A stretch of 64,000 bases of DNA from Psychroserpens sp. (GTDB lineage Bacteria > Bacteroidota > Bacteroidia > Flavobacteriales > Flavobacteriaceae), in contig JAEPNY010000003.1 of assembly GCA_017643165.1 (NCBI GenBank), positions 354,007-418,006 of the forward strand. The letters are read 5' to 3'. Made by a program: the position numbers and the translations under genes. The notes under the pieces were generated by a model that saw nothing but the letters and a program-made list of their open reading frames with translations, ran no database searches and had not been told where the DNA came from. Shown here in pieces: positions 9,360 through 42,094 of this stretch (within the stretch, counting starts at the first letter, position 1; each line of letters begins with the position of its first letter).

Positions 9360-10550
9360 ATGAATTTACACGAGTACCAAGGAAAAGAATTATTGAGCAG
9401 CTTTGGCGTTCGCATTCAGCGCGGAATTGTAGCTCAAAATGCTGATGAAGCAGTTGAAGCAGCAAAGAAGTTAACGGAAGAAACCGGAACAGGTTGGCAC
9501 GTTATAAAAGCACAGGTTCACGCTGGTGGTCGTGGAAAAGGAGGCGGAGTCAAGTTGGCAAAAAACCTAGATGACGTTAAAACGCTTTCCGGACAGATCA
9601 TAGGAATGGATCTAGTTACACCTCAAACATCAGCCGAAGGTAAGCGTGTACACCAAGTATTGGTTGCAGAAGACGTTTATTATCCTGGTGATTCTGAACC
9701 TGAAGAATATTATATGTCAGTACTATTGAATCGTGCTAATGGACGCAATATGATTATGTATTCGACTGAAGGCGGTATGGATATCGAAACAGTAGCTGAA
9801 GAAACACCACACTTAATCTTTACGGAGGAAATTGATCCATCAACTGGAATTTTACCTTTTCAGGCAAGAAAAGTTGCTTTTAATTTAGGTTTGTCTGGTG
9901 CTGCATTTAAAGACATGACACGTTTTGTGACATCTTTATATAAAGCTTATGTAGAATCAGACTCTTCATTATTTGAAATCAATCCTGTATTAAAAACTAG
10001 TGACGACAAAATTTTAGCAGTTGATGCGAAAGTAACACTAGACGACAATGCACTATTTAGACATAAAGACCTTGCTGAATTACGTGATTTACGTGAGGAG
10101 AACCCAATTGAAGTAGAAGCAGGAGCCTTAGGACTTAATTATGTTGATCTTGATGGAAATGTTGGTTGTATGGTAAATGGTGCCGGATTAGCAATGGCTA
10201 CTATGGACTTAATAAAGCAGGCTGGAGGTGAGCCAGCAAACTTCCTTGATGTTGGAGGTACTGCTGATGCTGCTCGTGTAGAAGCGGCCTTTAAGATCAT
10301 ATTGAAAGATCCTAATGTAAAAGCCATCCTTATTAATATCTTTGGTGGTATCGTTCGTTGTGACCGTGTTGCTCAAGGTGTGATTGACGCTTACAAGAAT
10401 ATTGGAAATATTAGTGTGCCAATTATTGTACGTTTACAAGGTACAAATGCTGACATTGCGAAAGAGTTAATCGATAACTCTGGATTAGATGTTTTAAGTG
10501 CTACACAATTTAAAGAAGCGGCAGACAAAGTTCAGGCTGTACTTTCTTAA
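9360..10550 (+). CDS. sucC: Succinyl-CoA synthetase (ADP-forming) beta subunit
   Basis: SucC (396 aa) is the ATP-grasp beta subunit of the TCA-cycle enzyme that makes ATP from succinyl-CoA. It opens with [12 protein letters not shown], the family's invariant start, and shows the ATP-grasp glycine-rich loop ([12 protein letters not shown], about 51-62), FEINPV near 200 and the C-terminal [10 protein letters not shown] (about 325) that contacts the alpha subunit phosphohistidine. The alpha-subunit gene sucD is not adjacent; in many Bacteroidota the two are separate. It ends in a very strong terminator. Confidence 0.97.
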
Positions 10551-10569
10551 TTATAGAGCTAAAGAATTT

Positions 10570-10603
10570 AAAAAGGCGTTCAAAAATTATTGAACGCCTT
10601 TTT
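10570..10603. terminator. Bidirectional terminator after sucC and the APS reductase gene
   Basis: A perfect 14-bp stem (10570-10583 / 10590-10603) with a 6-nt loop starts with five A and ends with six T, so it can stop transcription from both converging genes. Confidence 0.93.
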
Positions 10604-10630
10604 TATTTGTTATTAAGATTACGATTTCAA

Positions 10631-40341: not shown

Positions 40342-41157
40342 TTATACTGCTACATCATATTCTCGCAGGGCATCATTCAATGAGGTTTTTTTGTTTGTGC
40401 TTTCTTTTCGTTTTCCTATAATCAAGGCACAAGGCACATTATATTCTCCCGCCGCAAATGTTTTAGTGTAACTTCCTGGAATCACTACAGAACGTTCTGG
40501 AACAACACCGCGCATTTCTACTGGTTCATCTCCTGTGACATCAATGATTTTAGTACTCATAGTTAGAACGACATTAGCGCCAAGTACTGCTTCTTTTTCA
40601 ACACGAACACCTTCAACTACTATACATCTTGAACCAATAAACGCACCATCTTCTATGATTACCGGAGCCGCTTGTAATGGTTCTAATACACCACCAATAC
40701 CAACACCACCGGAAAGGTGTACATTTTTACCTATTTGAGCGCAGCTTCCAACTGTTGCCCAAGTATCTACCATCGTTCCTTCATCTACATAAGCACCTAT
40801 ATTTACATAACTAGGCATTAGTATCGTTCCAGAGGAGATATAAGCACCATGCCGTGCCACAGCATTAGGAACGACTCGAATTCCTTTAGCTTCATAATCG
40901 CGTTTTAGTGGAATTTTATCGTGATATTCAAAAATACCAGCTTCAAGTGTTTCCATTTTTTGTATTGGGAAATACAGTACTACCGCTTTTTTAACCCATT
41001 CATTAACTTGCCAGCCATCGGCTGTTGGTTCTGCAACTCTTAGGGTTCCAGAATCCAGTAAGTCTACTACTTTTCTTATGCTGTCTATAGTTTCTGATTG
41101 AGTTAAAAGCGAGCGATCGTCCCACGCATTTTCTATGATCTGTTGTAATTCATTCAT
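40342..41157 (-). CDS. dapD: 2,3,4,5-tetrahydropyridine-2,6-dicarboxylate N-succinyltransferase
   Basis: DapD (271 aa) performs the succinylation step of lysine/diaminopimelate synthesis. It has a helical N-terminal domain and a left-handed beta-helix of hexapeptide repeats (GTILMPSYVNIGAYVDEGTM, then IGKNVHLSGGVGIGG and FIGSRCIVVEGV). Start ATG 41157 gives the standard family length; 15 extra codons upstream do not fit. Together with lysA at 7939 it shows the succinylase branch. Confidence 0.96.
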   Translation of the reverse strand: MNELQQIIENAWDDRSLLTQSETIDSIRKVVDLLDSGTLRVAEPTADGWQVNEWVKKAVVLYFPIQKMETLEAGIFEYHDKIPLKRDYEAKGIRVVPNAVARHGAYISSGTILMPSYVNIGAYVDEGTMVDTWATVGSCAQIGKNVHLSGGVGIGGVLEPLQAAPVIIEDGAFIGSRCIVVEGVRVEKEAVLGANVVLTMSTKIIDVTGDEPVEMRGVVPERSVVIPGSYTKTFAAGEYNVPCALIIGKRKESTNKKTSLNDALREYDVAV

Positions 41158-41181: not shown

Positions 41182-41189
41182 CAAAGATA
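41182..41189 (-). promoter_or_regulatory. dapD -7 element
   Basis: The minus-strand sequence TATCTTTG matches TAnnTTTG, 24 nt before the dapD start codon. No convincing -33 TTG at the right spacing was seen. Confidence 0.55.
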
Positions 41190-41345
41190 ATTCTATATTC
41201 AACGTTTTTTAATGCATAAATCCTAAAAAATTCAAAAATTGTGACCTATCTAAAATTTAGGGGTCTTAATATATGATTATTATGATGCAATCGTATTCCT
41301 AATCTTACGTTTGATGTTTTTAATAATTAATAGCTAATTTTTGTG

Positions 41346-41382
41346 AAAACTCTCCTTCTCCCTTTGGAGAGTTTTCTTTTTT
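41346..41382 (+). terminator. Terminator of array unit 1
   Basis: Perfect 10-bp stem AAAACTCTCC / GGAGAGTTTT with a 10-nt pyrimidine-rich loop, followed by C and six T. Confidence 0.9.
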
Positions 41383-41476
41383 AAAAGATTATGTGACTTT
41401 TTAAAATAATGTGTGTCAAATAGATAAGGACGTGAGAAAAAACATTTTTACAAACCCTTGATTTATAATTGCGATT

Positions 41477-41510
41477 AAACCTTTTTAGATCCTCTAAAAA
41501 GGTTTTTTTT
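41477..41510 (+). terminator. Terminator of array unit 2
   Basis: Perfect 13-bp stem AAACCTTTTTAGA / TCTAAAAAGGTTT with a 3-nt loop, followed by five more T. The next unit's GTGAC starts at the very next base. Confidence 0.9.
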
Positions 41511-41608
41511 GTGACCAATTCAAAATATGTGTGTCTAAACTATAAACAGGTACTGTTTAAGGTAGAGGGTAAACGGTATCATGGATTTAATTAATAGTTG
41601 ATTATTTT

Positions 41609-41645
41609 AAACTCTTCACTGTATTTCAGTGAAGAGTTTTTTTTG
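41609..41645 (+). terminator. Terminator of array unit 3
   Basis: Perfect 13-bp stem AAACTCTTCACTG / CAGTGAAGAGTTT with a 5-nt loop and a T tract. It lies only 24 nt before the ruvX -7 box, so ruvX needs its own promoter downstream. Confidence 0.92.
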
Positions 41646-41668: not shown

Positions 41669-41676
41669 TAACTTTG
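41669..41676 (+). promoter_or_regulatory. ruvX -7 element, leaderless configuration
   Basis: TAACTTTG matches TAnnTTTG and ends 4 nt before the ruvX ATG, so the transcript should start at or next to the start codon. A TTG lies at 41643-41645 (23-nt spacer, at the long end of the accepted range). Confidence 0.6.
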
Positions 41677-41680
41677 CAGC

Positions 41681-42094
41681 ATGGCCAGAATTTTAGCGTT
41701 AGACTATGGAACCAAGCGAACTGGAATTGCAGTTACCGACGAGCTTCAGATCATTGCCTCGGGATTAACTACAGTTGAAACCAAATCATTGATTTCATTT
41801 TTACAAACTTATGTATCGCAGGAAAATGTGGAGTTATTCATTATAGGCGAACCGAAACAAATGAATAATGAGGCATCTGAAAGTGAAGCCTCTATTTCGA
41901 AATTTTTAAAGACACTCGAACGCACATTTCCGCATATACCAATCCATCGTGTTGATGAACGATTTACATCAAAAATGGCATTTCAAACTATGATAGACAG
42001 TGGATTGAGTAAAAAGCAACGTCGTAATAAAGCCTTAGTTGACGAGATCAGTGCTACCATTATATTGCAAAGCTATTTATATAATAGGTCTTAA
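41681..42094 (+). CDS. ruvX: Holliday junction resolvase-like protein RuvX/YqgF
   Basis: The RNase H-fold protein (137 aa) starts MARILALDYGTKRTGIAVTD, with the catalytic Asp in LDYG, FIIGEPKQMNNEASE in the middle and HRVDERFTSKMA carrying the second acidic residue, then the closing Asp in KALVDEISA. YqgF-family proteins are needed for 16S rRNA 5'-end maturation, with a proposed Holliday-junction nuclease role. It heads the plus-strand group ruvX-def-DUF5606-mazG. Confidence 0.95.
   Translation: MARILALDYGTKRTGIAVTDELQIIASGLTTVETKSLISFLQTYVSQENVELFIIGEPKQMNNEASESEASISKFLKTLERTFPHIPIHRVDERFTSKMAFQTMIDSGLSKKQRRNKALVDEISATIILQSYLYNRS

Follow-up and report, generated by a model that had tools for sequence, protein, structure and literature searches.

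In enterobacteria, the small RNAs MicA and RybB form the non-coding arm of an envelope-stress ECF sigma factor; they depend on Hfq and are encoded at scattered loci. The array described here would likewise be the non-coding arm of an envelope-stress ECF sigma factor, and is unlike MicA and RybB in being tandem and in a genome where no Hfq was found. Its nearest functional relatives appear to be sigma-E RNAs such as FoxI and FoxJ, the sigma-E-dependent small RNAs of Fusobacterium nucleatum (PMC11005410). As they are described there, the likeness comprises ECF-sigma promoters common to the RNAs and the sigma gene, a stress regulon, the absence of Hfq and ProQ, and a C-rich stretch as seed, which in FoxJ lies within a hairpin loop. 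In the same description FoxI and FoxJ form no tandem array, share the porin FomA as target and belong to another phylum, whereas in the present array the sigma mRNA is matched by the G-rich loop of one of the RNAs.

Three other systems are comparable in part. LhrC1-5 of Listeria are paralogous stress-induced RNAs with C-rich loops, lhrC1-4 being clustered (PMC4132741). The present units would likewise be paralogous stress RNAs, partly clustered and with C-rich loops; as presented in that paper, the LhrC RNAs depend on the two-component system LisRK and are virtually identical copies, whereas here the promoters are of the ECF type and the loops have diverged. In the same phylum, the FopS/GibS family of Bacteroides thetaiotaomicron is described, together with RbpB, as 14 members at multiple loci with canonical housekeeping promoters and an RRM protein partner (PMC11697453). 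It too is a paralogous small-RNA family, unlike the present one in that ours has ECF promoters, is tandem and lies in a genome with no RRM_1 match. In the same family of bacteria, Flavobacterium psychrophilum has the Rfp RNAs and an ECF-type -10 motif, SM6, with one RNA (Rfp11) behind it (PMC9723704). SM6 differs from our promoter in that it is described by a CGT box, serving T9SS genes among others, and the main text of PMC9723704 contains neither GTGAC nor dapD; the Rfp RNAs are set apart from ours by their description, not by their sequence.

In our searches of openly licensed papers we came across no account of the promoter, regulon or array presented here. It is an unnamed small-RNA array tied to one ECF sigma factor and one promoter, in a phylum whose small-RNA partners and targets are poorly known. 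Judging from the sequence, its role would be that of a non-coding arm within a stress sigma regulon; what we rate as new is the combination of a tandem array, in Bacteroidota without Hfq, with a loop that matches its own sigma mRNA. We think it very likely that the gap between dapD and ruvX holds three ECF-sigma small-RNA genes forming the non-coding arm of the regulon of an autoregulated sigma factor, with the probable targets proposed below for units 3 and 1. The core of this model, three small-RNA genes driven by the sigma factor, is strong. Transcription of each unit would begin at a separate ECF-sigma promoter and end at a separate terminator, the RNAs being made when the one autoregulated sigma factor is active.

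Organization of the dapD-ruvX gap

The window, the whole stretch of 64,000 nucleotides that was analysed, has a gap flanked by dapD (minus strand, listed to 41202, with its ATG near 41157) and ruvX (plus strand, from 41681). The four nearest named matches to its RuvX are 78-83% identical, and two of the four are called Psychroserpens; the source is a member of the Flavobacteriaceae, probably Psychroserpens or a close relative. The gap holds three promoter-RNA-terminator genes, with predicted RNAs of about 85-110 nt (Table 1). Below, G-numbers denote genomes and L-numbers loci.

Table 1. Features of the dapD-ruvX gap, in window coordinates
Feature	Position	Strand	Basis
Unit 1 promoter: -35 TGTGAC, 15-nt spacer, -10 GGGTC+TTA (one mismatch to GTGTC)	41240..41268	+	Sequence pattern
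Unit 1 predicted small RNA	41273..41382	+	Start from promoter, end from terminator
Unit 1 conserved outer helix and inner hairpin	within 41275-41334	+	Pair counts
Unit 1 hairpin loop, eroded to UUCCUAAUC in own genome	41296..41304	+	CCCUAA in 16/20 same-genus loops
TAATTAATAGCTAATT, first part common to units 1 and 3, 3' strand of unit 1 outer helix	41324..41339	+	Alignment, pair counts
Terminator 1, 10-bp perfect stem	41346..41375	+	Sequence
Unit 2 promoter: TGTGAC-N15-GTGTC-AAA	41392..41420	+	Sequence pattern
Unit 2 predicted small RNA, putative start	41425..41510	+	Unit comparison
Terminator 2, 13-bp perfect stem	41477..41505	+	Terminator scanner, sequence
Unit 3 promoter: TGTGAC-N15-GTGTC-TAA	41510..41538	+	Sequence pattern
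Unit 3 predicted small RNA, putative start; hairpin within 41549-41580	41543..41645	+	Covariance model, pair counts
Loop of unit 3, UAGAGGGU, a candidate seed for pairing with the start of the sigma mRNA	41563..41570	+	Sequence, pairing comparison
TAATTAATAGTTGATT, first part common to units 1 and 3	41588..41603	+	Sequence
Terminator 3, 13-bp perfect stem	41609..41639	+	Terminator scanner, sequence
ruvX box TAACTTTG, housekeeping TAnnTTTG type, 4 nt 5' of the ATG at 41681	41669..41676	+	Consensus given in PMC9723704
dapD box TATCTTTG, housekeeping type, upstream of the ATG near 41157	41182..41189	-	Sequence

A preliminary description of this DNA had read the gap as three tandem small-RNA genes descended from one copy, or else as a repeated attenuator; the small-RNA part of this is largely right, and the interpretation as a whole is partly supported. 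GTGAC is found at 41241, 41393 and 41511, where it had been placed, and the other elements listed there are also present: ATGTGTGTC common to units 2 and 3 (unit 1 carries GGGGTC at equal spacing), TAATTAATAG common to units 1 and 3 (from 41324 and 41588), and three perfect terminators of 10, 13 and 13 bp. The terminator scanner called terminators 2 and 3, and at terminator 1 only a shorter alternative hairpin, 41356-41371. The third TGTGAC starts inside the T-run that follows terminator 2, and unit 2 of this genome lacks a GCCCUAUAUACCCUU stretch that several relatives have.

The presence of three terminators upstream of ruvX, on its strand, would fit tandem attenuators or leaders of that gene. 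However, every unit comes with a separate promoter, and a TAACTTTG box belonging to ruvX stands 4 nt from the ATG of that gene. This box and that of dapD are of the housekeeping TAnnTTTG type, a consensus taken from section 15 of PMC9723704, and are unlike the unit promoters. Furthermore, the regulon is stress related, and the unit promoter was seen before ruvX in 16 of 80 named RuvX loci (gaps of 257-609 nt) and was not seen in the other 64, three of which have only about 200-230 nt of upstream DNA. Among these promoter-less loci, 58 have a measurable gap (86-331 nt in 35, at least 697 nt in 23) and six are without a measurable dapD. We consider attenuation of ruvX, including the repeated attenuator of the preliminary description, very unlikely. 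As the box lies only 4 nt from the ATG (window 41669-41681), the ruvX mRNA may be almost leaderless.

An ECF-sigma promoter and its regulon

The head shared by the three units, GTGAC...TGTGTGTC, follows the pattern TGTGAC-N15-GTGTCTWA, in which TGTGAC as putative -35 and GTGTCTWA as putative -10 element have the anatomy of an ECF-sigma promoter. The spacing from TGTGAC to GTC is exactly 17 nt in units 1, 2 and 3. In the window's own 3.1 Mb genome, TGTGAC-N17-GTC occurs 20 times (one self-complementary place being counted twice) against once for the backwards control, and three of these 20 sites fall inside 296 nt at the gap. The stricter TGTGAC-N15-GTGTC has 161 sites in 23 same-genus genomes versus six for the backwards controls, and the third base after GTGTC, a position left free by the pattern, is A in 98 of 98 sites from 18 of those 23 genomes. 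The shared 5' block had been regarded as part of the RNA; with this pattern and its genome-wide sites it is instead a promoter, and as such it leads to a sigma regulon. The AAAAT noted after GTGAC is indeed there, as variable promoter spacer and not as a shared RNA feature. Since the block from GTGAC to GTC is a promoter, it is not expected in the transcript, and RNA starts are expected near 41273, 41425 and 41543.

The regulon was obtained by clustering the genes behind promoter sites, with Pfam names taken from one member per cluster. The clusters, whose counts depend on which sites were fetched, comprise DUF2853 (15), the ECF sigma factor (12), a 142-aa protein that matched no Pfam family (10), ileS behind a long leader (9), a protein with DUF3078 (6), MscL (6), an M48 peptidase (4), GNAT (4), LysM/BON (3), an OmpA-like protein (3; the label is a reading from the sequence), aquaporin (2), DUF4197 (2) and others. 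This membership points to osmotic or envelope stress as the probable signal.

The same promoter appears, in the genus-level clustering, before the ECF sigma gene itself. It precedes the gene in 17 of 20 same-genus sigma loci and, on a second reading, in the remaining three (L323, L327 and L336), the variants accepted being TGTGAC, GGTGAC or AGTGAC and, once, GGGTC. In the window's own genome (L170) it reads GGTGAC-N15-GTGTCTTA and begins 60 nt before the TTG. Among 120 family genomes, 42 have the promoter and 44 the sigma factor (E 1e-40); 39 have both, three only the promoter and five only the sigma factor (Fisher p 2e-22, which is only a guide because the genera are related). Within the genus, an intact sigma gene is present in 20 of 23 genomes and missing from G003, G022 and G017, which have 0, 1 and 3 promoter sites, respectively. 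Neither G003 nor G022 has a match to the gap DNA, and in G017 the sigma gene (L206) is cut by an early stop behind an intact promoter and the array is reduced to unit 3; all three genus members without an intact sigma gene miss all or most of the array. We take the link between sigma factor and promoter as established by computation. As read from the sequence, the units have the marks of sigma-regulon small RNAs: an ECF promoter shared with the sigma gene, their own terminators, no coding capacity and structure.

The sigma operon consists of the sigma gene, a protein of about 58 aa and, in the window's genome and others seen, an MscS-like channel, the last named from its sequence. The second frame (57-62 residues, MENPFKDIDKPLKSVPEELKAKVMNDIAIAKLIMELAELFSYNLGDVIETVMSKR...) overlaps the sigma stop and is conserved in 17 of 20 loci (L170, L318-L335); it is a candidate anti-sigma or accessory protein. 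Other arrangements recur in the regulon. In L184, L194, L203, L215, L225, L232, L236, L240 and L247, two promoters face each other across DUF2853 and the 142-aa gene at a distance of about 1.8-2.5 kb, which makes them a recurrent convergent pair. Upstream of ileS in relatives (L186, L191, L200, L213, L217, L228, L238, L253 and L255), reading by eye shows a very short hydrophobic frame, or a pair of them, behind the sigma promoter (for example MKNTKRI(L/V)SL...), possibly stress-induced membrane peptides. Another promoter site of the window's genome (L005, C1:951291) is followed by TTTAATTAATAATAGCTAATAG, as in units 1 and 3, with no clear terminator before the next gene.

Structure and relationship of the RNAs

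Units 1 and 3 are conserved, covarying RNAs. In unit 3 (24 of 30 sequences), 87.7% of the cells are paired and both partners have changed in 13 pairs; in unit 1 (19 of 28 sequences) the figures are 94.3% and 12. These counts are made on given structures and lean towards them, because RNAalifold on plain MAFFT alignments yielded the terminator stems only and the hairpins were supplied from single-sequence folds. None of 500 shuffles reached the covariation score of either unit, and slid controls stayed well below it; among the five measures taken for unit 1, there were two that 5 and 9 of the 500 shuffles did reach. The short outer helix of unit 3 is weak, with 62% of its cells paired. Inner stems covary and loops are kept, UUUCCCUAAA-like in unit 1 and UAGAGGGU in unit 3, the latter identical in 20 of 20 same-genus sequences. 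In other genera, three unit 3 loops (L043, L087 and L115) read AGAGGGA in place of AGAGGGU, which shows that the loop varies between genera; moreover, unit 3 was defined as the last GAGGG-holding unit before ruvX, and outside the genus the presence of the loop is therefore partly a matter of definition. The unit sets exclude duplicate genomes (L182, L189, L051 and L052) and also L118, L079, L091, L116 and L121. The unit 3 alignment (A1) was made without L031, L033, L043, L087, L115 and L125, and that of unit 1 (A2) without L031, L062, L080, L082, L084, L087, L115, L122 and L125.

These data bear on two further explanations. The units could code for short peptides rather than act as RNA, as the very short membrane-peptide frames that the regulon seems to include upstream of ileS might suggest. 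Against this, the gap has no ORF of at least 60 aa, its longest plus-strand open run (about 42 codons) has no ATG and spans terminator 2 and promoter 3, and variation tracks the paired columns, with compensatory changes and indels; we regard a coding role as highly improbable. The promoters could also act mainly by titrating the sigma factor, for which a promoter cluster would serve as binding sites, leaving the RNAs as by-products. Covarying RNA structure and conserved loops are hard to reconcile with by-products, and we give titration as the main function hardly any weight. Taken together, promoters, terminators, conservation and covariation support three tandem small-RNA genes, as the preliminary description had proposed.

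Its second proposal, descent from one copy, is weakly supported. Units 1 and 3 share TTAATTAATAG and a similar architecture, and their covariance models cross-match: the models of units 1 and 3 each find the other unit (E 0.0012 and 0.0031), and find unit 2 at E 0.29 and 0.0006, scores to which the terminators add. Two further matches of the unit 3 model are its terminator read on the reverse strand (E 0.0002) and an unrelated place at 10527-10605 (E 0.0078), and loops and hairpins differ among units 1, 2 and 3. On their own units, the unit 1 model (R2) matches 41268-41379 with 101.7 bits and the unit 3 model (R1) matches 41537-41643 with 99.9 bits, the own sequence being included in each model.

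A comparison with Rfam, one of the checks suggested earlier, gave no match at gathering for the window or 10 related loci (Rfam 15); at relaxed thresholds nothing was credible, the best sub-threshold match in the gap having E 0.077. Pairing between units (2 with 3, 1 with 3) showed no consistent excess over shuffles. Regarding RNA chaperones, Hfq (PF17209) was found in none of 37 genomes (the window's own, 21 others of the genus and 15 of the order), with 5 of 14 controls positive, and RRM_1 (PF00076) had no match in the window's genome, the Bacteroides ihuae control being positive.

Candidate targets

The sigma frame opens with TTG, followed by CAACCCTCTA or GGAACCCTTA and the like. The unit 3 loop UAGAGGGU can pair over 8 bp with ACCCUCUA or ACCCUCUG after this TTG in 15 of 20 genomes (G016 is not among the 20, and one of the 15 has the broken G017 gene); in the other five the sigma mRNA has ACCCUU, and the predicted pairing is about 6 bp plus wobbles. 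Shuffled starts did as well in 1-28 of 300 cases for the 15 genomes and in 22-58 of 300 for the five, so that taken singly the pairings exceed composition only mildly. When 300 translation starts, some of them sigma orthologues, were compared with the consensus loop, the own sigma start was equalled or surpassed by three, one from a further sigma gene and two from window genes unrelated to it. Several genomes have no ATG near the sigma TTG; the window's genome and a few others have an in-frame ATG at codon 8, and there the matched site may be late leader and not first codons.

The matched nucleotides themselves are conserved. All 20 sigma starts that were read (one being the broken G017 gene) contain ACCC, and their proline codon 3 is CCC, a codon used for 4.7% of the prolines of 48 window genes. 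Among 33 other loci of the family, 8 have ACCCT after the TTG shifted by one nucleotide and hence in a different reading frame, an argument for selection at the RNA level; in six more it stands elsewhere in the leader or first codons, several of the 33 being unparsed. The seed complement ACCCTCTACC is not enriched genome-wide over the backwards control, and this 10-mer does not contain the sigma site. The unit 3 loop would probably pair with the start of the sigma mRNA; we put the chance that it thereby damps translation of the sigma factor, as negative feedback, at about even or slightly better. If the sigma mRNA is a direct target, this would be a compact feedback loop joining transcriptional and post-transcriptional control in the absence of the usual RNA chaperones, and the joint change of seed and target could be followed from genus to genus.

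Alternatively, with the same core of sigma-dependent RNAs, the main targets could be mRNAs of outer-membrane proteins or others, as for the sigma-E RNAs of other phyla; the sigma mRNA and the 142-aa gene would then be matched incidentally. There is precedent in FoxI and FoxJ, described as repressors of the porin FomA (PMC11005410), and the 300 starts compared are not the whole genome; the leader around the sigma start varies, however, whereas the nucleotides that would pair are retained there, a rare codon among them. We see this alternative as a serious one whose chance nevertheless lies clearly below even.

Of the ten starts among the 300 that score best with unit 1, eight belong to orthologues of the 142-aa regulon gene, with UUUAGGGA or AAGGG directly before the ATG. 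Pairing with the start of this gene would extend over at least 8 bp in 8 of 14 genomes and is 4-6 bp or broken in the rest. The gene was not found at E 1e-15 in G000, G003, G012, G013, G017, G021 and G022; it is partial in G020 and a broken copy in G006. The unit 1 loop is eroded in three of six parsed genomes without an intact 142-aa gene, and also in G005, which has the gene. CCCUAA is kept in 13 of 14 genomes with the intact gene versus three of six without (p 0.06), and the tracking of seed loss with absence of the gene is suggestive only. The 142-aa gene is likewise a suggestive target, and AGGGA near its ATG could instead be an unusual ribosome site. In relatives, unit 1 would probably act on this gene as unit 3 on the sigma mRNA; in the window's own genome the gene was not found and the loop is eroded. 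For unit 2, no clear set of targets emerged among the 300 starts.

A more general reading, which we advance tentatively and rate somewhat short of an even chance, is that the tandem array acts as a brake within the regulon without Hfq or an RRM protein. Its loops would be aimed at the regulon's own members, that of unit 3 at the first codons of the sigma factor and that of unit 1 at the beginning of a gene under the same control; unit number (one to four) and loops would turn over between genera at one site, and loops could erode after loss of their target.

Distribution of the array

The gap DNA is matched in 20 of 22 other same-genus genomes, as the preliminary description had expected of genuine units. 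Units 1, 2 and 3 were parsed between dapD and ruvX in 19, 12 and 20 same-genus genomes, respectively; in G016 units 1 and 3 lie on two contigs. Across 249 family genomes, unit 3 gives clear matches in the genus and in three further genera, and weak ones beyond these (12 of the 249 at E 0.001, of which several are weak). It is confined to few genera, whereas the promoter is wider. At the same dapD-ruvX place, other genera have four units (G030, L303) or three (G122, L305) of different sequence.

Some further units were observed in these comparisons. A TTTGGTTGGTTG stretch recurs in the L303 and L305 units and in a Hanstruepera unit (L091). At L371 and L372 (G039 and G041) the sigma promoter precedes short units that contain AAAAGGGGGTTT or AAAAAGGGTTT and finish in a T-rich end; in those genera, ACCCT at the sigma start could be a pairing partner for the G-rich stretch of these units. 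In L029 and L031, with a similar stretch in L028, there is an extra unit-2-like copy that has a terminator and no recognised promoter.
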